Positions 2,860-13,265 of a stretch of 64,000 bases of DNA are shown here, one piece after another. Source of the stretch: Collimonas arenae (GTDB taxonomy: Bacteria; Pseudomonadota; Gammaproteobacteria; Burkholderiales; Burkholderiaceae_D); assembly GCF_000786695.1 (NCBI RefSeq), contig NZ_CP009962.1, positions 310,001-374,000 of the forward strand, in the 5' to 3' direction. Below the pieces are notes generated by a model that ran no database searches, was not told the DNA's origin, and worked only from the letters and a program-made list of their open reading frames with translations. Numbering within the stretch: position 1 is the stretch's first letter; each line of letters begins with the position of its first letter. The translations under genes and the position numbers were made by a program.

Positions 2860-3000
2860 ATACCACATGCCCCCAGTCATCGCGGGAATCGATGTTCATG
2901 TGGGCCTGGCAATCAGCGTAGTGCTTGCGGTGTTAGCCCATTTAGGGCTGCGCTGTGCCCATTCGGGCTTCGCACTGCGCGTGGTTGGCGGCAACCTTTG
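2860..3000 (+). pseudogene. Remnant of a sugar/nucleoside-type ABC transporter permease
   Basis: One plus-strand frame reads GIDVHVGLAISVVLAVLAHL, then GFALRVVGGN, ending at a TGA at about 2998-3000. The membrane segment followed by GFALRVVGGN is characteristic of the uncharacterised ABC permeases related to the BmpA/nucleoside and simple-sugar families. Only about 40 codons remain, without a start or the rest of the permease. It sits immediately after the LysE gene among other remnants. Confidence 0.55.
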
Positions 3001-3226
3001 AAGAGTGCCTGTGTGGTCCAAATGTCTCCGGCGGAGCACTTGGCATTGCGCAATTTCGATCGTCCACCATTCCGATGCGGCGTATTTCTTCGACGCGAGC
3101 CGCATTGTCTACGAGACCGCCGCTGCAACGGCGGGCAGGCCAGTCATCGATAAGGCCATGGCTGGTTCCCATAGTTCAGCAGCCTGATTTCAAAACTTCA
3201 TTTAATTCACATATAGAGGTAATTCC

Positions 3227-3310
3227 ATGCAAACCAACACTACACCAATTGATCATTTCATTGACGGCCATATGATCGCCAAGACTTCGTTATCAAAGTG
3301 GAAGTACTAA
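3227..3310 (+). pseudogene. Remnant: start of an aldehyde dehydrogenase-type gene
   Basis: A 27-codon frame beginning at an ATG with AGAGG upstream reads MQTNTTPIDHFIDGHMIA and then ends in unrelated residues at a TAA. The IDHFIDG(x)M pattern resembles the first strand of aldehyde dehydrogenases. It ends 3 bp before the response regulator start, so the junction is probably an old deletion that placed the regulator behind a foreign leader. Confidence 0.4.
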
Positions 3311-3313
3311 AAA

Positions 3314-4015
3314 ATGAATATCGCGATTCTTGATGATGATTTTCATCAAATTAATCTTATTTCCAATATTCTCAGATCCGAAGGGCATATTTGTGCCGCG
3401 TTCCAAAGGGATGAAGACGTATTGATGCGGTTGAGCAGTGGTAACTTCGACTTGCTGATTCTGGGCGGAGCGAGTGCGCTTGATGTATTAAAAGAGATAA
3501 GGGAGCAACTCCCCCAAGCTATACCTATTTTGTTTGTCGTGGACAATTCTGACGAAGAAGGCATTGTTGAAGGACTAACTGCGGGTGCCGATAGCTGCAT
3601 GATCAAACCTATACGGGGCAATGAACTGTCTGCGCGAGTGCAGGCGTTGGTGCGGCGCGCGTATCCGATGAATGCAAATAAGAAAATCGAATTTAGCGAT
3701 TATTTATTTGATATGAGTACCCACCAGCTGACACGGGCAAGTAAACCAATTGACATCTCACCAAAGGAATTTGATCTAGCGCTGCTTTTTTTTCGCAACC
3801 TTGATTGCCCCCTTACTCGCACATATATTCTCGAGACAGTTTGGTCAAACTGCATTCCCGTTTCGTACCAAACCTTGTATACACATATTGCCAATATCAG
3901 AGACAAATTGCAGCTACAGGTAGAGAACGGATATCGGCTTTATTCAATCTATCGATATGGTTATCAACTGCAACGACTCAACACAAGTAAACAATGCGCA
4001 GCAGTTGCGACTTGA
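3314..4015 (+). CDS. OmpR-type response regulator lacking the phosphoacceptor aspartate
   Basis: This 233-residue protein has an N-terminal receiver domain (about 1-115) and a C-terminal OmpR/PhoB winged helix (about 125-225, with ISPKEFDLALLFFRN and the final YRYGYQL). The acidic pocket (LDDD, 6-9) and the conserved lysine (IKP) are present. The residue that should be phosphorylated is glycine (DLLILGG, position 51), and the switch Thr/Ser position is valine. It therefore cannot be activated by the usual phosphotransfer. It is a close paralogue of the regulator at 7022-7735, which keeps Asp51. No histidine kinase is adjacent. It lies directly downstream of a truncated leader and lacks the upstream element shared by the other two copies. 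It may be an atypical regulator working without phosphorylation, or a decaying duplicate. Confidence 0.9.
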   Translation: MNIAILDDDFHQINLISNILRSEGHICAAFQRDEDVLMRLSSGNFDLLILGGASALDVLKEIREQLPQAIPILFVVDNSDEEGIVEGLTAGADSCMIKPIRGNELSARVQALVRRAYPMNANKKIEFSDYLFDMSTHQLTRASKPIDISPKEFDLALLFFRNLDCPLTRTYILETVWSNCIPVSYQTLYTHIANIRDKLQLQVENGYRLYSIYRYGYQLQRLNTSKQCAAVAT

Positions 4016-4023
4016 TGATGCTA

Positions 4024-4525
4024 GATGGCTTTGTTGCATAAATCTTCGCCAGTCTCATCTGAATTGAGGCTCCTGCAAGCTAGCGCTATGGGTGCTCCCG
4101 TCAAACGGAAGTATCGAACGACCTACTGAGAAAAATGCAACGTGGCGTTGAAGGCCATAGTTCGCGGCTCATCTGGTCGGATATCTATGACACGAAAGGC
4201 TGTCATGAAGCCATTGCGCGGCGCGGTGTACAAGGCAGTATTCCGACACGCAATAAACGGCAAACCGTAGAAAGAGCGCAGCTCTGGCGCTGGGCGCACA
4301 AAGCCCTATTGCATGCCACGCGCCGTCTTGACTAATGATTTTGAAGAGGTGGCCGGCTATCGTCGGCGCAGTCTGGCCGAAGAAAAAATTGATTGTTTCG
4401 GGCCGCTGGGTGGCGGGCAATGACAGGCGGCTTCGATCGTCTGGTTCCCGAGTTGAGGTGCGCGTCGCCATCCTCAATCGCTTCACGCGACTTGGTATAC
4501 CTACCGCGGTGATCGTGCCGTAAAG
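4024..4525 (+). mobile_element. Degenerate IS5-family (IS427-like) insertion sequence with internal deletion
   Basis: The left end carries GGCTTTGTTGCATAAATC, which resembles the terminal sequence of IS5/IS427-group elements. Conserved transposase pieces follow in several frames: KRKYRTT near 4098, an NVALKA...RGS...IWSD stretch near 4138-4185, then directly YDTKGCHEAIARRGVQG (4189-4240), then a frameshifted GYRRRSLAE and the terminal block with VRVAILNRF. The central catalytic part is missing and several frames are needed, so the element is dead. The right terminal repeat was not found. Confidence 0.75.
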
Positions 4526-4689
4526 TCGTCTGGGATATTTTTTCACACTCAGTTTATATGTGTAGGAAAGCCATGTAGAAGCAGCAGCTGCTTCGTGATT
4601 AAGTTCACCACGACACAAATTTTGTCAGCCATATCAGCATCGGATTGAATGTGACCGATGAAATCTAAACATTTGTAAAAATTCTCAGA

Positions 4690-4734
4690 TTTAACAATTA
4701 CTAATTATTTATTAGGTCGCATGCTGCCTACAAT
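4690..4734 (+). promoter_or_regulatory. Upstream element shared by the response-regulator copies (copy in front of the broken third regulator)
   Basis: TTTAACAATT at 4690 is followed by a similar AT-rich stretch and by GCTGCCTACAAT ending at 4734. The same arrangement, with identical 39-nt spacing between the TTTAACAATT box and TACAAT, occurs at 6857-6901 before the intact regulator. TACAAT is a plausible -10 box. The conservation suggests that a promoter and a binding site were duplicated with the gene. Confidence 0.55.
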
Positions 4735-4863
4735 ACTAACGTAACAAACGCAGTAAAAAATCAAGAATCCACATGCGGAATTTCTTCGTTTTATTTTGGA
4801 TTTTTAGCATAAATTCGATGCGAAAAAAGTTGCCGATCAGCTTTCAAATCTTTGAAAAAAAAC

Positions 4864-4990
4864 GTGAAAATGGCCGTTCTTGATAATGATTGCGATCATG
4901 CCGCTATTTTACGACGTGCCTACGTGCGATGGACGTATATGCGAGTCATTTCAAAGCGGGGAAGAGATATCGAAACAGTTGTGGAGCTAG
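4864..4990 (+). pseudogene. Frameshifted N-terminal remnant of a third response regulator
   Basis: From 4870 one frame reads MAVLDNDCDHAAIL, matching MNIAILDDDFHQ and MKIAVLAEDRNQ of the two intact paralogues. About 15 codons later the homology continues in another frame as DGRICESFQSGEEISKQLWS, ending at a TAG at 4988-4990. This matches the HICAAFQ... and YVCKAFDSG... segments of the paralogues. The rest of the receiver and the DNA-binding domain are missing. The first frame stays open to a TAA at 5011-5013 that overlaps the ATG of the next gene (TAATG), so the remnant may still be translated and coupled to it. Confidence 0.7.
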
Positions 4991-5012
4991 GTGTTTTGTG
5001 CGGGAAAAGATA

Positions 5013-5801
5013 ATGAGTCTTCGAGACGACCACTGGAAAAAATTGGAGCCGCTGCTTCTTGGATCAGAAAATGAACCAGGGGTAACCGGCCGTAATAATC
5101 GATTGTTTATCGATGCAATTCTTTGGAAATTGGCAGGTTCCGGAACGTGGCCAGAACTACCATCTGAGTTTGGAAAATGGAACACAGCGTATATGCGTTT
5201 TAGACGCTGGAGTGTAAGCGGCTTCTGGCATCAACTCATGTCGCATGTAAGTGAAGATTTGGAATTGCGCGCCATAATCGAAGAAATTTCCGCCTATGGC
5301 GACAGAGTGTTAATGCGAGTTAATGAGAGATCTTTCAGAAGAGAAAGCCGCAAGATTAATGGCTCGAAAAAAGAATTTTTCAGAAGCTTCGATGAATCGA
5401 AAATTTCAGAAGATTCGCCTTTGCATTGGGTCGATTTGATGTCAGATTCCCGCGGCGCTGAAAAAAAAGTGACTGGTGACTTGGAGTACTTAAAAAGTAT
5501 CGAATGTCGCAATCTGAGGGGGATTGAAGATTCTGCTTCGCTGCAGATTCCGTCAGATGGAAAGTCTAGTAACTGTATTGCAAATACGACGTGTAATCCA
5601 AATCGATTGCTGGATACTCTGATAGTTAATTTGTGCCTCAGAAATGATGCGGAGCTGGCGCGAAAACTTAAAATTTCTCCACCCGTGATTAGCAAAATTC
5701 GAAATCATCAAATAGTGATTGGAGCATCTGTCTTGATAAAGATGCATGACGCCAGCGGACTAAGCATCAAAGAATTGCGTGCCCTGTTAGGGGAAATCTG
5801 A
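5013..5801 (+). CDS. Fusion of a transposase-type N-terminal domain (DUF4096-like) with a Cro-like HTH
   Basis: This is a 262-residue protein. Residues 1-80 follow the N-terminal domain of IS4/IS5-type transposases: DDHWKKLEPLL, then DAILWKLAGSGTWPELPSEFG, then YMRFRRWSVSGFW. The catalytic DDE domain is absent. A charged linker of about 100 residues follows. The last about 65 residues (LDTLIVNLCLRNDAELARKL and PPVISKIRNH to SIKELRALLGE) are a compact Cro/CI-like helix-turn-helix of a kind I associate with Oxalobacteraceae. The start at 5013 is chosen because transposase homology begins there; GGGAAAAG precedes it. It has two putative DNA-binding modules and no nuclease, so a domesticated regulator is the best reading. 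The function is unknown. It sits downstream of a broken response regulator and its promoter. Confidence 0.75.
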   Translation: MSLRDDHWKKLEPLLLGSENEPGVTGRNNRLFIDAILWKLAGSGTWPELPSEFGKWNTAYMRFRRWSVSGFWHQLMSHVSEDLELRAIIEEISAYGDRVLMRVNERSFRRESRKINGSKKEFFRSFDESKISEDSPLHWVDLMSDSRGAEKKVTGDLEYLKSIECRNLRGIEDSASLQIPSDGKSSNCIANTTCNPNRLLDTLIVNLCLRNDAELARKLKISPPVISKIRNHQIVIGASVLIKMHDASGLSIKELRALLGEI

Positions 5802-5849
5802 AATGCATTTTTATGCACACAAAGTAAAATCATGAGGCCTTTGACGTTC

Positions 5850-6440
5850 ATTACAAGCCTCTGATTGGTAGCAGGAACCTGTACTTGTTCACGCTGATGG
5901 GATGGTCAATTGCCACGATTTTGGTGTGCTTCATGGCGAAGTGACGACCAATCCTACTGACGCTTGGCTTGTCGTTTGCATTGCGCTTTGCACTGAGATT
6001 CATCGAAGCCCGGCGCTTTCCTGCCAATAGCTGGGTCACTGCCATGTGGTGTCCGAAGCAATAGCGCGGATGGGAAATGGCACTCCTTTCTTCTGCTTCG
6101 TACTTCGTGACGACTATTTTCACGCCCATTGCGGAATGGCTGAGTGGCAGGTTCGGCTGACCCACATCGTTTTTCACCATCGGTATTTTCGGGGGCGCAG
6201 CGGCCGGTGTGCGGCTGACTCTGTCTCGCTCTCGTGGACAGTAGCACGTGATCAATCGTATTGATGACGCTGACCGTTTTTGGCAAAAGCATTACGACCG
6301 AGATTGATACCTGGTTGCAAGACGGCGCTGGGGAAACCATGAGGTTGGTCAGTTTGATATTCAACTACGTCGGCAATATCGCAGGCGTTACCACGCCGAT
6401 TGCTTTCGGCTATAGATCCGCAATCAGTTTCTTGAACTTC
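5850..6440 (+). pseudogene. Decayed MFS transporter (sugar-acid permease type)
   Basis: Fragments of one major-facilitator protein can be read in several plus-strand frames, in order. They are RNLYLFTLMGWSIATILVCF near 5873, ARRFPANSWVTAMW near 6010, a piece with SYFVTTIFTPIAEWLSGRFG near 6095, and SLIFNYVGNIAGVTTPIAFG near 6350. The order and motifs resemble the D-glucarate/galactonate anion:cation symporter group. At least three frame changes and stops separate them, and part of the middle is missing. It cannot make a transporter. Confidence 0.65.
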
Positions 6441-6449
6441 GTATTATTT

Positions 6450-6647
6450 TCTTCCAAATGACGAAGCCGACGTAGTTCGGAAGGTCCTCGGTCGCAATCT
6501 TCGTCCTGGTGCAAAACGTCGCCTCAGATATCCCAAGCTTGCGACATACCTATCTATCGTCATTCCCAATTCCGCTCGCTTCAAAGCAAAAGTCATTTGC
6601 CGCTCTGTGAATTTACTTCTCCTCACGGCTACTCTCCTTTTTCTCAT
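6450..6647 (-). mobile_element. Remnant of an IS3-family element (orfA start, frameshifted)
   Basis: Read on the minus strand from 6647, the peptide contains RRSKFTERQMTFALKRAELG, the start of the small DNA-binding protein OrfA of IS3-family elements. After MTIDR one base appears to be lost and the homology resumes in the next frame as VCRKLGISEATF. The remainder of orfA and all of orfB (the integrase) are absent. It interrupts or abuts the decayed MFS gene. Confidence 0.75.
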
Positions 6648-6856
6648 TAGAAAAGTTATGCCGGATTCTTTTCTTTTAATTGAGGTTGTTTATTGCGACA
6701 GGGTTATCTCTACGTGACCAGATAGCAAAAAAACGAACGACGTAGGGCGTCTGCAGAATATTTTCCTCATCGATTTTTTTCATATTCCTCACTCTTTACA
6801 TCATTGCGTTGTTGTCGATGGTCGACACAATCTCAACAATTGTTAGCGACCCGGAA

Positions 6857-6901
6857 TTTAACAATTGATGATTATTTTTTTGCTTATCGGCTGCTTACAA
6901 T
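6857..6901 (+). promoter_or_regulatory. Upstream element of the intact response regulator
   Basis: TTTAACAATT at 6857 and TACAAT at 6896-6901 are separated exactly as in the copy at 4690-4734, with similar AT-rich sequence and a GCTGC in front of TACAAT in both. This suggests a promoter with its -10 at TACAAT and a leader of about 110 nt before the regulator start at 7022. Confidence 0.55.
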
Positions 6902-7021
6902 CGCGTCATCAGTGGCTTAGACGGGGGATTTCAATCTCGTCTGAATTTTTAAGTTCCAAAATTTTAGACGAATTTCAAGGATGTCAAAAGCGCGCAAGGC
7001 TGAAGTCCCGGTTGGAGAAAT

Positions 7022-7735
7022 ATGAAAATTGCTGTTCTTGCCGAGGATCGAAATCAAGCCGGTATCGTTTGCGAAATTCTCGAATCTGAAAGATACGTTT
7101 GTAAGGCGTTTGATAGTGGGATGGAGATGTTGAGTCAGCTGCGCGGAGGAAATTACGAAATGTTGATTATCGATTGGCGAGTTGCGGATCTGACTGCGGT
7201 TGAGCTATTTCGTTGGATAAGAAGCGAATTTTCCAAGGTCATTCCAATTATGTGTATTGCCAATCATGCGGACGAACATGAGGCCGTTGAAGGTTTGAGC
7301 GCCGGTGCTGATAGTTATCTCATTAAACCAATCCGTCGCAATGAATTGGTGGCGCGCGTGAAGGCACTTATACGGCTCGCTTATCCGAGTCAGAACGTGG
7401 CTGAAAAATTTGCTTTTGGTGATTATTTATTCGACACACGTGCCTGTCGTTTGACCGTGGCAGAGGAGTTGATTGATATCAAGCCAAAGGAATTTTCTCT
7501 TGCGCTCATGTTGTTTCGCAACCTTGGTGTCTCCGTCTCTCGTGCGCAGATTTTGGAGGAGGTATGGTCGCGAGGGACTGTGATTTCGTCTCAAACCTTG
7601 AACACACATATCTCGCGCATACGTGAAAAATTGCGATTGCGGCCAGAAGGTGGTTTTAGGCTTTGTTCGATTTATCGGTATGGCTATCGATTGGATCAAC
7701 TAAGCGTGGAAAAGGATGCCGAGAAATCTCCTTGA
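7022..7735 (+). CDS. OmpR-type response regulator (intact phosphoacceptor)
   Basis: This 237-residue protein has a receiver domain (about 1-118) followed by an OmpR/PhoB winged helix (about 128-232, IKPKEFSLALMLFRNL to YRYGYRL). Asp51 (EMLIIDW) is the expected phosphorylation site, Asp9 belongs to the acidic pocket, and the lysine lies in LIKPIRR. The usual switch Thr/Ser is alanine. The start at 7022 has GGAGAA just upstream. No sensor kinase lies within the window, so it is an orphan here. Its position about 300 bp before the large adhesin gene makes that gene a plausible target; this is inference. It is the best-preserved member of a local three-copy family (3314-4015 and the remnant at 4864-4990). 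Confidence 0.93.
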   Translation: MKIAVLAEDRNQAGIVCEILESERYVCKAFDSGMEMLSQLRGGNYEMLIIDWRVADLTAVELFRWIRSEFSKVIPIMCIANHADEHEAVEGLSAGADSYLIKPIRRNELVARVKALIRLAYPSQNVAEKFAFGDYLFDTRACRLTVAEELIDIKPKEFSLALMLFRNLGVSVSRAQILEEVWSRGTVISSQTLNTHISRIREKLRLRPEGGFRLCSIYRYGYRLDQLSVEKDAEKSP

Positions 7736-8045
7736 TGCCAAATTTGTTGGACGGAGTCTCCGGAATCTTTACTTGAATTATCTGAAATTGAAAATAGAAG
7801 ATCAACGACGCACTTCATTGATCCTATGGGCATTAATGATCTTAAGCATGGACATGTCGCAATTGGCATTTTCCTAGCCGGTGGTAACAGCTGAAAAGCT
7901 GTCTGTTTCTGTAGTTTTTATCTAAAAACGTCACCGCGAATCTCGCACAATTCAAAGTGGCCAAAGTTGCATCGAGGGCGCCGGACAATCGGTTAACGCG
8001 ACATTGGGCAAACCGTGCGACATCATCGAATTAGGGAATGAGGAA
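7736..8045 (+). other. Intergenic region upstream of the adhesin, with a small hairpin
   Basis: No gene is seen. At 7887-7902 ACAGCT-GAAA-AGCTGT forms a perfect 6-bp stem with a GAAA tetraloop, followed shortly by a T-rich tract; it may end the regulator transcript. The adhesin promoter should lie in the remaining sequence, but I cannot pick it with confidence. Confidence 0.4.
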
Positions 8046-11000
8046 ATGAACAAGATATATGCAACAGTTTGGAGCGAATTCCATCGTCAATGGGTTGTGG
8101 TGTCAGAAGGTGTTCGCAGTAGCAAGAAAAAAAGTACGCGCGGGGCTGGTACGATTCTGCGCCTGACAGGATTTGATAGCTTGAAGCCTATAGCAGCGGG
8201 AATTATTTCCGCTCTGTCTATAATTTCCTTTGCTGATATCGCACGGTCCGGAAAAGTGACCGTTCGCAGCGGTAAGCCGAGTAAAAGTAAAGTTGCCGCT
8301 GCAGTTGCCTTGGGCGCTTTGATTTTCTTTGACGGAGCTGCTTTGCTGCCAGAGGCGCAGGCTGCGGTCCAAGCTCCGGGGCTCTGCGCAAGCAACATCA
8401 GTAACAGCAGTTCGGCCTCGTATCTCGTGGGAGGGTCGGCTAACGGCGCTGGTAACGCTTGCAGCCAGGCTGATACACCTATTGTCGGAACTCCAGGGAG
8501 CTCGACTTTTGCGAGCGTTAGCGCTAATGGAACGCAGGTTGAAGTCAATGGTGACACCGGGCTAATATATTTCCGGCCCGGGGGTACGAGCGGCAATATC
8601 TTGACCATGACTAACGTGCCAGGGGCCGGCCCCACAGGCGGTGTTCAGCTTTCAGGAGTGGCAGCCGGCGCGATAAACGCGACAAGTACTCAAGCCGTGA
8701 ACGGCTTTCAACTCTACACGTTGTCGACGTCGACCTCAACCGGCATCAGCACGGCACAAAGCGGCGTGAATTCTCTGTCGACTGGCCTGAGTACCACCAA
8801 CAGCAACGTGACGTCGTTGTCGACATCGGCGTCGATAGGCATCAGCACAGCACAAAGCGGCGTGAATTCACTGTCCACTGGCTTGAGCACAACGAATAGC
8901 AACGTGACGTCGTTGTCGACATCGGCCTCGAGCGGCATCAGCACAGCACAAAGCGGCGTGAATTCGCTGTCGACTGGCTTGAGCACAACCAACAGCAATG
9001 TGACTTCGCTGTCGACATCGGCATCGACCGGTATTTCATCGCTGTCGACTGGCCTGAGCGCTACCAACAGCAATATGACTTCGTTGTCGACTTCTGCTTC
9101 AACTGGAATTGCTAATTCAGTTCAGTATGATAATCCTGGTCACACGAGCGTTACATTGGGAGGTGCAGGTGCTACAGCACCAGTTACCCTTACCAATGTT
9201 GCACCAGGGGCGGCTCCAACTGATGCCGTCAACTTCAGCCAATTGTCATCTTTATCGTCATCCACCTCAACTGGCATCAGCACCAACGCCAGCAATATTG
9301 GTTCGCTGTCCACTAGCTTGAGCACGACCAATAGCAACGTGACCTCGTTGTCGACTTCGGCATCGACAGGGATTAGCACCAACGCCAGCAACATCGGATC
9401 GCTGTCGACGGGCCTGAGCACGACCAATAGCAACGTGACATCGCTATCGACTTCAGCGTCGACCGGCATCAGCACCAACGCCAGCAACATCGGTTCCTTG
9501 TCGACTGGTCTGAGCACGACCAACAGCAACGTGTCGTCGCTGTCGACTGGTCTGAGCACGACCAACAGTAATGTCTCCTCGCTGTCGACTTCTGCATCGA
9601 CAGGTATTTCATCACTGTCAACCGGTTTGAGCACGACGAATAGCAATGTGTCGTCGTTGTCGACATCTGCATCGACCGGTATTTCGTCGCTGTCGACCGG
9701 CTTGAGTACGACCAACAGCAATGTCTCCTCGCTGTCAACCTCGGCCTCGACCGGCATTACTTCACTGTCGACTGGCTTGAGCACGACCAACAGCAACGTG
9801 ACCTCGCTGTCGACTTCAACGTCAACCGGCATCAGCACGGCACAAAGCGGCGTGAATTCACTGTCGACTGGCCTGAGCACCACCAACAGCAATGTGACTT
9901 CGCTGTCGACTTCAGCCTCGACGGGCATCAGCACAGCACAAAGCGGCGTGAATTCACTGTCGACCGGCCTGAGCACGACCAATAGCAATGTGACTTCCTT
10001 GTCGACATCGACTTCGACCGGCATTTCATCGCTGTCGACTGGTCTGAGCACGACCAACAGCAACGTGTCGTCGCTGTCGACATCTGCATCGACCGGTATT
10101 TCATCGCTGTCAACCGGTTTGAGCACGACCGATAGCAATGTGTCGTCGTTGTCGACATCTGCATCGACCGGTATTTCATCGCTGTCAACTGGTTTGAGCA
10201 CGACCAGCAGCAATGTGTCGTCGCTGTCGACATCTGCATCGACCGGTATTTCATCGCTGTCAACCGGTTTGAGCACGACCAGCAGCAATGTGTCGTCGCT
10301 GTCGACCGGCTTGAGTACGACCAACAGCAATGTCTCCTCGCTGTCGACGTCTGCATCGACCGGTATTTCATCGCTGTCAACTGGTTTGAGCACGACCGAT
10401 AGCAATGTGTCGTCGTTGTCGACATCTGCATCGACCGGTATTTCATCGCTGTCAACCGGTTTGAGCACGACCAGCAGCAATGTGTCGTCGCTGTCGACCG
10501 GCTTGAGTACGACCAACAGCAATGTCTCCTCGCTGTCGACGTCTGCATCGACCGGTATTTCATCGCTGTCAACTGGTTTGAGCACGACCGATAGCAATGT
10601 GTCGTCGTTGTCGACTTCCGCATCGACCGGTATTTCATCGCTGTCAACTGGTTTGAGCACGACCGATAGCAATGTGTCGTCGTTGTCGACTTCCGCATCG
10701 ACCGGTATTTCATCGCTGTCAACCGGTTTGAGCACGACCAACAGCAATGTGTCGTCGTTGTCGACCGGCTTGAGTACGACCAACAGCAATGTCTCCTCGC
10801 TGTCGACGTCTGCATCGACCGGTATTTCATCGCTGTCAACTGGTTTGAGCACGACGAATAGCAATGTGTCGTCGTTGTCGACATCTGCATCGACCGGCAT
10901 TTCATCGCTGTCGACTGGTCTGAGCACGACGAATAGCAACGTGTCGTCGCTGTCGACATCTGCATCGACCGGTATTTCATCGCTGTCAACCGGTTTGAGC

Positions 11001-13265
11001 ACGACCGATAGCAATGTGTCGTCGTTGTCGACATCTGCATCGACCGGCATTTCATCGCTGTCGACTGGTCTGAGCACGACGAATAGCAATGTCTCCTCGC
11101 TGTCGACTTCCGCATCGACCGGTATTTCGTCACTGTCAACCGGTTTGAGCACGACCAACAGCAATGTCTCCTCGCTGTCGACGTCTGCATCGACCGGTAT
11201 TTCATCGCTGTCAACTGGTTTGAGCACGACCGATAGCAATGTGTCGTCGTTGTCGACATCTGCATCGACCGGTATTTCATCGCTGTCAACCGGTTTGAGC
11301 ACGACCAACAGCAATGTCTCCTCGCTGTCGACGTCTGCATCGACCGGTATTTCATCGCTGTCAACTGGTTTGAGCACGACCGATAGCAATGTGTCGTCGT
11401 TGTCGACATCTGCATCGACCGGCATTTCATCGCTGTCGACTGGTCTGAGCACGACGAATAGCAATGTCTCCTCGCTGTCGACTTCCGCATCGACCGGTAT
11501 TTCGTCACTGTCAACCGGTTTGAGCACGACCAACAGCAATGTCTCCTCGCTGTCGACGTCTGCATCGACCGGTATTTCATCGCTGTCGACAGGGTTAAGC
11601 ACGACCAATAGCAATGTGTCGTCGTTGTCGACATCTGCATCGACCGGCATTTCATCGCTGTCGACTGGTCTGAGCACGACGAATAGCAATGTCTCCTCGC
11701 TGTCGACTTCCGCATCGACCGGTATTTCGTCGCTGTCGACCGGTTTGAGCACGACCGATAGCAATGTGTCGTCGTTGTCGACATCTGCATCGACCGGCAT
11801 TTCATCGCTGTCGACTGGTCTGAGCACGACGAATAGCAATGTCTCCTCGCTGTCGACTTCCGCATCGACCGGTATTTCGTCACTGTCAACCGGTTTGAGC
11901 ACGACCAACAGCAATGTCTCCTCGCTGTCGACGTCTGCATCGACCGGTATTTCATCGCTGTCGACTGGTCTGAGCACGACGAATAGCAATGTCTCCTCGC
12001 TGTCGACTTCCGCATCGACCGGTATTTCGTCACTGTCAACCGGTTTGAGCACGACCAACAGCAATGTCTCCTCGCTGTCGACGTCTGCATCGACCGGTAT
12101 TTCGTCGCTGTCGACTGGTCTGAGCACCACCAACACAAATGTGTCATCGCTGTCGACAGGCTTGAGCACTACCAACAGCAATATGACGTCGTTGTCGACA
12201 TCGGCTTCGACCGGGATCAGCACGACGCAAAGCGGTGTGATTTCACTGTCGACCGGCCTGAGCACGACAAATAGCAATGTCGGTTCGCTGTCGACTTCCG
12301 TGTCGACCGGTCTGAGTACGGTGAGCAGCAACGTATCGTCGTTGTCGACCGGGTTGAGTACAACGAATAGCAGTGTGTCGTCACTGTCAACCGGCCTGAG
12401 CACTACCAACAGCAACGTGTCGTCGTTGTCTACAACTATTGCACCGCTGGTAGCGAGCAGCACATATGCCGCGAATTCCGGAATGGGTATCGGCGCCACC
12501 CTGATCGGTGCCGTCAACGCCAACGGAATGGCGGAAACACGAGGCATATCAGGCAACACGATTACATCGGTGGTCGTGGCGACTTGCGGTTCTGCCAATG
12601 GCATCGACAGCACAGCGTCCGGATTGTGCGCCAAGGCCACCCAGGACGGCGCAAGCGCCTATGGTTCCAATGCGCGGGCAACGGCAGTCAATACCACGGC
12701 TGTGGGCTTCCGGGCGCTTGCCTCCCAGGAAGGCGCGGTCGCCATCGGCTATAACGCTCAGGCTACCGGCGACCCAACCGTCGCAGTTGGCTATAACTCG
12801 GTTGCCGCCGGTAATAACTCTGTGGCAATGGGGGCGGGAGCGCAAGCGATTGCTAACAACACTGTTGCGCTGGGTGCAGGTTCTGTGGCGGATCAGGACA
12901 ATACGGTGTCTGTAGGTGCTCATGGTAGCGAACGTCGCATTACCAATGTGGCTCCAGGTGTCAATCCGACTGATGCTGTGAATGTATCCCAACTCAACAA
13001 CGTGCAAAACCAGATTGGTAATGTGCAACGGATTGCTTACTCGGGTATCGCCATGAGTATGGCGATGTCGGGGGCAGTGATGCCGGCTCTGGATGCGGGT
13101 GAAAAAGGTGTGGGTGTCGGTGTTGGCTCATATCAGGGTTATGGTGCGCTGGCCCTGCAGTTCAAGTCCATCAGCAAGACCGGCATGAGCGCTTGGGGGG
13201 CTGGGGTCAGCACTACCGGCCACAATGCCGGTTTAAGTCTTGGCTACGGTTTCAAGTGGAAATAA
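8046..13265 (+). CDS. Trimeric autotransporter adhesin (YadA/Hia type) with highly repetitive stalk
   Basis: This is a 1739-residue outer-membrane adhesin. The start at 8046 gives MNKIYATVWSEFHRQWVVVS, the extended signal peptide region typical of large trimeric autotransporters; an upstream ATG at 8004 lacks this. Hydrophobic segments follow at about 49-63 and 83-106, with likely cleavage after AQA. Residues about 224-1465 form a Ser/Thr-rich stalk of repeats beginning SLSTGLSTTNSNV, broken near residue 360-400 by a neck-like segment (NVAPGAAPTDAVNFSQL). Near the C-terminus are YadA head-type repeats (AVAIGYNAQA, SVAMGAGAQA, NTVALGAGS; about 1535-1628), a second neck (ITNVAPGVNPTDAVNVSQL) and the four-strand anchor ending GLSLGYGFKWK. 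It should mediate attachment or aggregation. The ligand is unknown. A long open frame on the opposite strand is a by-product of the repeats. Confidence 0.95.
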   Translation: MNKIYATVWSEFHRQWVVVSEGVRSSKKKSTRGAGTILRLTGFDSLKPIAAGIISALSIISFADIARSGKVTVRSGKPSKSKVAAAVALGALIFFDGAALLPEAQAAVQAPGLCASNISNSSSASYLVGGSANGAGNACSQADTPIVGTPGSSTFASVSANGTQVEVNGDTGLIYFRPGGTSGNILTMTNVPGAGPTGGVQLSGVAAGAINATSTQAVNGFQLYTLSTSTSTGISTAQSGVNSLSTGLSTTNSNVTSLSTSASIGISTAQSGVNSLSTGLSTTNSNVTSLSTSASSGISTAQSGVNSLSTGLSTTNSNVTSLSTSASTGISSLSTGLSATNSNMTSLSTSASTGIANSVQYDNPGHTSVTLGGAGATAPVTLTNVAPGAAPTDAVNFSQLSSLSSSTSTGISTNASNIGSLSTSLSTTNSNVTSLSTSASTGISTNASNIGSLSTGLSTTNSNVTSLSTSASTGISTNASNIGSLSTGLSTTNSNVSSLSTGLSTTNSNVSSLSTSASTGISSLSTGLSTTNSNVSSLSTSASTGISSLSTGLSTTNSNVSSLSTSASTGITSLSTGLSTTNSNVTSLSTSTSTGISTAQSGVNSLSTGLSTTNSNVTSLSTSASTGISTAQSGVNSLSTGLSTTNSNVTSLSTSTSTGISSLSTGLSTTNSNVSSLSTSASTGISSLSTGLSTTDSNVSSLSTSASTGISSLSTGLSTTSSNVSSLSTSASTGISSLSTGLSTTSSNVSSLSTGLSTTNSNVSSLSTSASTGISSLSTGLSTTDSNVSSLSTSASTGISSLSTGLSTTSSNVSSLSTGLSTTNSNVSSLSTSASTGISSLSTGLSTTDSNVSSLSTSASTGISSLSTGLSTTDSNVSSLSTSASTGISSLSTGLSTTNSNVSSLSTGLSTTNSNVSSLSTSASTGISSLSTGLSTTNSNVSSLSTSASTGISSLSTGLSTTNSNVSSLSTSASTGISSLSTGLSTTDSNVSSLSTSASTGISSLSTGLSTTNSNVSSLSTSASTGISSLSTGLSTTNSNVSSLSTSASTGISSLSTGLSTTDSNVSSLSTSASTGISSLSTGLSTTNSNVSSLSTSASTGISSLSTGLSTTDSNVSSLSTSASTGISSLSTGLSTTNSNVSSLSTSASTGISSLSTGLSTTNSNVSSLSTSASTGISSLSTGLSTTNSNVSSLSTSASTGISSLSTGLSTTNSNVSSLSTSASTGISSLSTGLSTTDSNVSSLSTSASTGISSLSTGLSTTNSNVSSLSTSASTGISSLSTGLSTTNSNVSSLSTSASTGISSLSTGLSTTNSNVSSLSTSASTGISSLSTGLSTTNSNVSSLSTSASTGISSLSTGLSTTNTNVSSLSTGLSTTNSNMTSLSTSASTGISTTQSGVISLSTGLSTTNSNVGSLSTSVSTGLSTVSSNVSSLSTGLSTTNSSVSSLSTGLSTTNSNVSSLSTTIAPLVASSTYAANSGMGIGATLIGAVNANGMAETRGISGNTITSVVVATCGSANGIDSTASGLCAKATQDGASAYGSNARATAVNTTAVGFRALASQEGAVAIGYNAQATGDPTVAVGYNSVAAGNNSVAMGAGAQAIANNTVALGAGSVADQDNTVSVGAHGSERRITNVAPGVNPTDAVNVSQLNNVQNQIGNVQRIAYSGIAMSMAMSGAVMPALDAGEKGVGVGVGSYQGYGALALQFKSISKTGMSAWGAGVSTTGHNAGLSLGYGFKWK
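8716..12440 (+). repeat. Coding tandem repeats of the adhesin stalk (75-bp unit plus shorter 42-bp units)
   Basis: The dominant unit is 25 codons (75 bp): SLSTGLSTTNSNV followed by SSLSTSASTGIS. It is repeated about forty times between 9480 and 12440, with several 42-bp half-type units (SLSTGLSTTNSNVS) between. Earlier units (8716-9480) carry longer inserts such as TAQSGVN and TNASNIG. Many units are nearly identical at the DNA level and share the GTCGAC core, so the array should be prone to slippage or recombination in multiples of three bases, which changes stalk length without breaking the frame. Confidence 0.95.

Follow-up and report, generated by a model that had tools for sequence, protein, structure and literature searches.

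The window analysed here is a stretch of 64,000 nucleotides of Collimonas arenae (contig NZ_CP009962.1). The gene of interest is a fusion gene located between two intact response-regulator genes (RR1 and RR2), 2.2 kb before a giant YadA-type adhesin gene. Residues 1–148 of its product are a member of a family of stand-alone proteins of about 150 residues, which is defined in this analysis and referred to as "minis"; the C-terminal part is a helix-turn-helix (HTH) domain. The features of the locus are:

3314..4015 (+): intact OmpR-type response regulator RR1 (Pfam Response_reg and Trans_reg_C, above cut-off)
4662..4982 (+): remains of a decayed response-regulator gene (its upstream DNA and about 40 initial codons), with homology to the DNA that leads up to and enters RR2
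4689..4699 (+): ATTTAACAATT box, candidate operator, before the remnant (pattern search)
4864..5013 (+): reading frame of the regulator remnant, with GTG start and a stop overlapping the ATG of the fusion (ORF reading, DNA alignment)
5013..5456 (+): mini part of the fusion, with DUF4096 region, basic segment and HWVDLM tail (residues 1–148; Pfam, mini profile, alignment)
5457..5576 (+): true linker of the fusion (residues 149–188; no single match spans the whole)
5577..5801 (+): XRE/Cro-like HTH part of the fusion (residues 189–262) and stop (38–55% identity to nine stand-alone HTH proteins)
6856..6866 (+): another ATTTAACAATT box, before RR2 (pattern search)
7022..7735 (+): intact OmpR-type response regulator RR2 (Pfam)
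8004..13265 (+): giant Ser/Thr-rich YadA-type trimeric autotransporter adhesin (ESPR and YadA_stalk above cut-off)

The YadA_anchor domain of this adhesin is above cut-off in one search (26 bits) and below it in another (18.7 vs 22.7 bits).

The reading frame of the fusion (5013–5801, + strand) encodes 262 amino acids and is uninterrupted by stops in the ORF reading of the window; upstream of the ATG it stays open as far as a TTG at position 4890. Pfam analysis assigns residues 3–76 to DUF4096 (PF13340) with 74.1 bits (above the cut-off of 34.3) and yields a weak match of residues 213–255 to HTH_3 (PF01381) with 17.2 bits (below the cut-off of 23). L051, a clear stand-alone relative of the HTH part, is likewise without a Pfam family. 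Pfam and NCBIfam searches of the fusion displayed DUF4096 and HTH alone, and no DDE nuclease domain; the NCBIfam model of IS5 transposases (NF033580) aligns to residues 2–105 with its profile positions 4–103 of 258 and reaches 76.4 bits, below its cut-off of 110. A preliminary description, made from the sequence alone, had proposed a DUF4096-like region without the DDE nuclease joined to a Cro-like HTH, and the intact frame, the Pfam score and the kinship of the HTH with a large stand-alone family bear this out. The linker seems to have been drawn too wide: residues ~77–148 belong to the N-terminal family and are conserved in it, and the junction lies at about residues 149–188. Some mini and HTH matches extend part way into this linker of ~40 residues, in some cases through stops. 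Residues 1–147 score 180.1 bits on a mini profile built without the fusion, and in the alignment the basic segment and the W139/L142 tail of minis are present; with 262 residues and a second head, the fusion lacks the stand-alone trait of ~150 residues. The HTH part scores 139 bits against an HTH profile in which the fusion itself is included, and 17 alignment columns are invariant in the fusion and the nine stand-alone HTH proteins (10 of 10 sequences).

The stretch from 4662 to about 4982 can be aligned with the DNA from 6829 on, which covers the region before RR2 and the beginning of this gene, at a score of 79, as compared to a maximum of 45 in 200 base shuffles; the response-regulator remnant described before the fusion, and the inherited upstream region, are therefore real. 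The stop of the remnant frame overlaps the start codon of the fusion in a TAATG at 5011–5015, as had been noted, and no Pfam match was found in the remnant (4852–5010). The suggestion that the fusion has inherited the promoter of the regulator holds as sequence homology of the upstream DNA only. A scan of the coding strand from 4500 to 7100, which covered promoters of the sigma-70-like type only, found none. Rfam families gave zero matches in window positions 3000–8200, which does not by itself rule out a guide RNA.

The left flank of the locus (1000–2900, Lrp/LysE-type) has a 93% identical inverted copy just past the right end of the window (G000:C1:375198–376500). No DNA match to this flank at E ≤ 1e-30 was found in the 14 other genomes of the genus, and together with the inverted copy this makes it likely that the region is strain-specific and rearranged. 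Scraps at 4123–4523 and 6444–6647 resemble transposase fragments by eye, and we take them to be of IS4/IS5 type and IS3 OrfA type; Pfam analysis of two pieces displayed no match.

A search with the fusion as query found 42 proteins, namely the fusion itself, 2 HTH proteins and 39 DUF4096 proteins of 145–187 residues (one of 220). The organisms named for the latter are only Collimonas and Paraherbaspirillum, and since the records mostly label these genes "transposase", they are easily discarded as IS debris. Minis share the DUF4096 region and a basic segment, and 50 of 74 extracted copies display an HWVxLV-like tail. Seven Collimonas genomes with long contigs harbour 6–15 copies each, and the genome of the fusion holds 13 further minis and one remnant. 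DUF4096 matches are present in 14 of 15 genomes of the genus, and the remaining small genome has the HTH alone. On the level of the bacterial family, the mini profile matches 28 of 195 genomes, 11 from the same genus and 17 from outside. Full-length minis are found in the 11 and in G028, the sole such case among the 17; the other matches outside the genus are confined to about residues 1–113, like the OrfA of a multi-copy IS in G015. Among the best 80 of 116 named relatives, the matches that extend at least to residue 144, with E of 3e-33 or lower, belong to Collimonas species, Herbaspirillum rhizosphaerae and Glaciimonas soli, genera which are all Oxalobacteraceae according to taxonomy look-up. 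Solved structures yielded no match to the mini profile at E ≤ 0.1. An origin from phages or plasmids was considered and dismissed: viral contigs gave just 3 weak relatives, and among 879 plasmid records none reached 60% identity and none covered 80% of the query in one place.

For closer analysis, 74 minis from nine genomes of the genus and from G028 were placed on a tree, with G008 (4 copies) and G009 (2 copies) taken in part. In an alignment with 13 IS OrfA proteins, the minis retain the DNA-binding pattern of OrfA. The catalytic D(S/G/A)T motif is kept by 12 of the 13 OrfA proteins (the 13th reads DGK) and by none of the 74 minis at residues 81–108; a single mini has an Asp at the column aligned to the catalytic Asp. 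A count over whole sequences finds D(S/G/A)T in 10 of 74 minis, at least part of which is the C-terminal D-S-T-L-H-W tail, and was set aside. Judging by the neighbouring genes, many minis are orthologous and occupy fixed loci. For 16 groups of orthologs or paralogs, which comprise 62 of the 74 minis, median dN/dS (NG86) ranges from 0.092 to 0.289, five groups being single pairs, and single pairs with dS < 1.5 range from 0.041 to 0.522. The mini family is under purifying selection, inclusive of groups without a type V secretion gene as neighbour. The idea of a domesticated, nuclease-less transposase relative is well supported, but domestication belongs to the whole mini family and was not an invention of this gene.

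The second head had been associated with this bacterial family, and stand-alone relatives are indeed widespread in Oxalobacteraceae. The HTH profile yields 4210 matches at E ≤ 1e-6 among 8000 candidates scored; the genera named among the 120 matches listed are Collimonas, Glaciimonas, Herbaspirillum and Noviherbaspirillum, all Oxalobacteraceae, and each of the 15 genomes of the genus has at least one copy. Relatives elsewhere occur as single domains, in tandem (P0124, P0171) or, in P0126, together with another domain, so the head is modular. Among the matches listed, only the fusion joins it to DUF4096. The HTH family itself does not appear to be adhesin-linked, as raw counts for 38 of the 65 HTH entries place 2 within 3 kb of an adhesin, one of these being the fusion, and 4 within 6 kb. 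One match of a solved structure to the HTH profile (21 positions, E 0.0005) is taken as chance.

Minis are linked to adhesins. Of the 70 minis in the seven long-contig genomes, 25 have one of the 64 YadA-type adhesins within 3 kb, with 1.58 expected (Poisson, 1e-21). The expected number rests on placement that is random and uniform, and the Poisson statistic treats copies as independent, which they are not. A partial check on this non-independence is given by the mini tree, which requires a minimum of 8 changes of linkage (33 of 74 tips are linked), with no shuffle comparison alongside. The count is based on 64 of 77 adhesins with YadA_anchor, 56 of 57 autotransporters (one fragment dropped) and 70 minis, those of G002 and G011 taken from the search of the genus genomes and the others from the mini-profile search. 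Short IS-like partial matches, the second half of a tandem in G007 and ESPR matches were left out, and one degenerate mini is included in the 25; the tree tips L268 and L271 received their linkage label from other searches and not from this count. All 25 adhesin-linked minis, the fusion included, are on the strand of the adhesin. They involve 23 of the 64 adhesins, and 13 stand before and 12 behind the adhesin, 10 of the latter starting 41–353 bp from its end. A further 7 of 70 minis adjoin classical autotransporters (0.95 expected), all 7 on the same strand, and 38 of 70 are without either kind of type V gene within 3 kb.

Other neighbours of minis are diverse. In Herbaspirillum rhizosphaerae (L127:4012–8480) the mini follows a CS1-type usher cluster: on one strand, the usher and a further gene without Pfam match come first and the mini comes last. 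The mini of G028 stands before an adhesin-like ORF that is truncated at the contig end, with a regulator gene in between. By eye, some ortholog groups adjoin genes that resemble metabolic or efflux genes. At eight loci (L046, L216, L224, L236, L246, L256, L262, L270) a mini ortholog is followed after ~0.4–0.5 kb by two related genes; of these, the one tested is glycosyltransferase-like at the Pfam cut-off. AraC-type regulators diverge from the mini in L036, L044, L220 and L251 (Arabinose_bd, tested in L036 only), and relatives are found on the strand of the mini in L242, L252 and L268. Regulators with winged-helix and TPR domains recur near adhesin-linked minis (L039, L043, L048, L229, L232, L271; in L048, the one case tested, Trans_reg_C at cut-off plus TPR). 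In G007, a double mini (298 amino acids, head-to-tail tandem) directly follows a YadA-type adhesin (L248:6959–7855).

The ATTTAACAATT box is found at 26 sites in the seven genomes, as compared to 11 sites for the reversed control pattern. Eight of the 26 sites precede a YadA adhesin by at most 4 kb (6 adhesins are concerned; 0.17 sites expected), an enrichment that is partly circular as the box was first spotted at adhesin loci. It is common to several adhesin loci in G000, G006 and G011; G003 has zero sites, and none of the three in G007 is adhesin-linked. In view of its discovery at adhesin loci and of these two genomes, the box is only a lead towards a candidate operator. A search for a shared operator (word or dyad) upstream of 28 representative minis found none above 20 shuffled sets; an AT-rich 7-mer is marginal (10 of 28 sequences, null maximum 9).

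Based on this dataset, we hypothesize, with a probability of roughly one half, that the fusion is a lineage-specific join of two small DNA-binding families, in which minis act as regulators of adjoining surface-protein genes and the fusion acts as a two-headed regulator at the adhesin locus. According to this model, minis would derive from OrfA, the DNA-binding part of an IS5-type transposase, with loss of the nuclease, would bind DNA at their own loci via the transposase-type N-terminal domain, and when bound would tune the adjoining surface-protein gene, above all type V adhesins. The fusion would add a second DNA-reading head of XRE/Cro-like type on its linker; it would be transcribed from the inherited regulator-type upstream region and translated by coupling to the remnant frame. 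We also propose, tentatively and with somewhat less than even confidence, a wider reading in which Collimonas turned the DNA-binding half of a DDE transposase into cis-encoded regulator paralogs beside many of its giant adhesins, and the fusion is a second-generation, two-headed form reading two sites simultaneously.

The main rival, which we regard as rather unlikely, is a chance junction: a recent rearrangement would have joined a mini gene to an HTH gene within a strain-specific region that also contains decayed genes, the product being unselected or decaying. The rarity of the fusion is in its favour. When the full-length architecture was sought in other genomes, as the preliminary description had advised, none was found beyond its own: it occurs in 1 of 15 Collimonas genomes, and in a large protein set (where the profile search scored only the 8000 candidates sharing most words) none of the 120 listed of 206 matches is another protein of more than 220 amino acids. 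The regulator remnant upstream and the left flank without a DNA match at that threshold in the 14 other genomes of the genus are likewise what this explanation would expect, as is the weak codon-position signature of the mini part, where GC at the three codon positions is 0.47/0.43/0.43 as compared to medians of 0.58/0.43/0.69 in the 73 other minis. This signature counts mildly against the fusion; other AT-rich adhesin-linked minis such as L036 and L039 partly share it. On the other hand, the frame of 262 codons is intact, and of the 32 columns with conservation of ≥85% among the 73 other minis, the fusion retains 31 (19 of 19 at ≥95%, 12 of 13 at 85–95%), in addition to the 17 invariant columns of the HTH, although much of this may predate the fusion. 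Columns conserved at 70–85% are kept in 11 of 15 cases and those below 70% in 27 of 100. Retention of the conserved columns indicates that the branch of the fusion evolved under constraint and speaks against long-relaxed selection, but it does not date the fusion event.

Two further explanations concern minis in general. One, which we consider improbable, is that they are passengers or structural partners that travel with adhesin cassettes by duplication and recombination, in some non-regulatory role. The short distances between adhesin ends and most of the minis behind them fit this explanation, and so do two pairs of near relatives in the genome of the fusion (L039/L043 and L040/L042). However, linked minis are scattered over the tree, about half of them precede the adhesin, others adjoin classical autotransporters and a pilus cluster, and groups without type V neighbour are under selection as well. 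The other, to which we assign a slightly lower probability still, sees minis as repressors of transposition, i.e. nuclease-free OrfA decoys that bind the ends of IS5-type elements and silence them. Alignment of the DUF4096 region with IS OrfA over residues 1 to ~110 is compatible with such a role, but neither the many divergent, locus-fixed orthologs per genome nor the adhesin linkage with its strand bias would be expected of an IS decoy. Taken together, the fusion is a one-off variant of conserved nuclease-free relatives of transposases, often found beside giant adhesins in the soil bacteria Collimonas, where they probably act as regulators. If minis set which adhesin is made, they would provide a handle on surface attachment of Collimonas. 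The fusion would illustrate, in a case from nature, how a regulator with two heads originates.

In searches of the open-licence literature at the level of titles and abstract openings, no multi-copy bacterial family came up that stems from the DNA-binding portion of a DDE transposase and is associated with adhesin genes; articles with DUF4096 in their open-licence full text do not mention such a family in title or start of the abstract. Several known systems are related in part. The OrfA of IS5-family transposases (IS427/IS402-like; PF13340, NF033580) shares DUF4096 with the minis and, in most, the NR.F..A / W..LP / Y.RF.RW pattern. Minis, in contrast, end at ~150 residues without the D(S/G/A)T motif and have a basic segment and, in many copies, an HWVxLV-like tail of their own; the fusion is not an IS5 transposase, because the defining nuclease is absent. 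Its C-terminal head is by sequence a member of the stand-alone XRE/Cro-like HTH proteins of Oxalobacteraceae (PNRLLDTLI...KNDAALSR...PPVISKIR). InsA of IS1 is an OrfA-type DNA-binding protein without catalytic domain, which can repress IS1. Minis resemble it in this make-up, but InsA resides within a living IS, whereas minis are single genes at conserved loci.

A further parallel is provided by TldR proteins, which are nuclease-dead relatives of TnpB. TldR proteins are described as RNA-guided transcription factors regulating flagellin, and regulators of this transposon-derived type are reported from phages and bacteria (PMC13418256); transposon-derived regulators are also described in animals (PMC10027918). 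Minis differ from TldR in that they are of DDE transposase OrfA and not of TnpB ancestry, and the Rfam search of the locus gave no match for a guide RNA. In outline, both would represent a mobile-element protein without nuclease that is kept as a regulator of a surface structure, as the minis may be.
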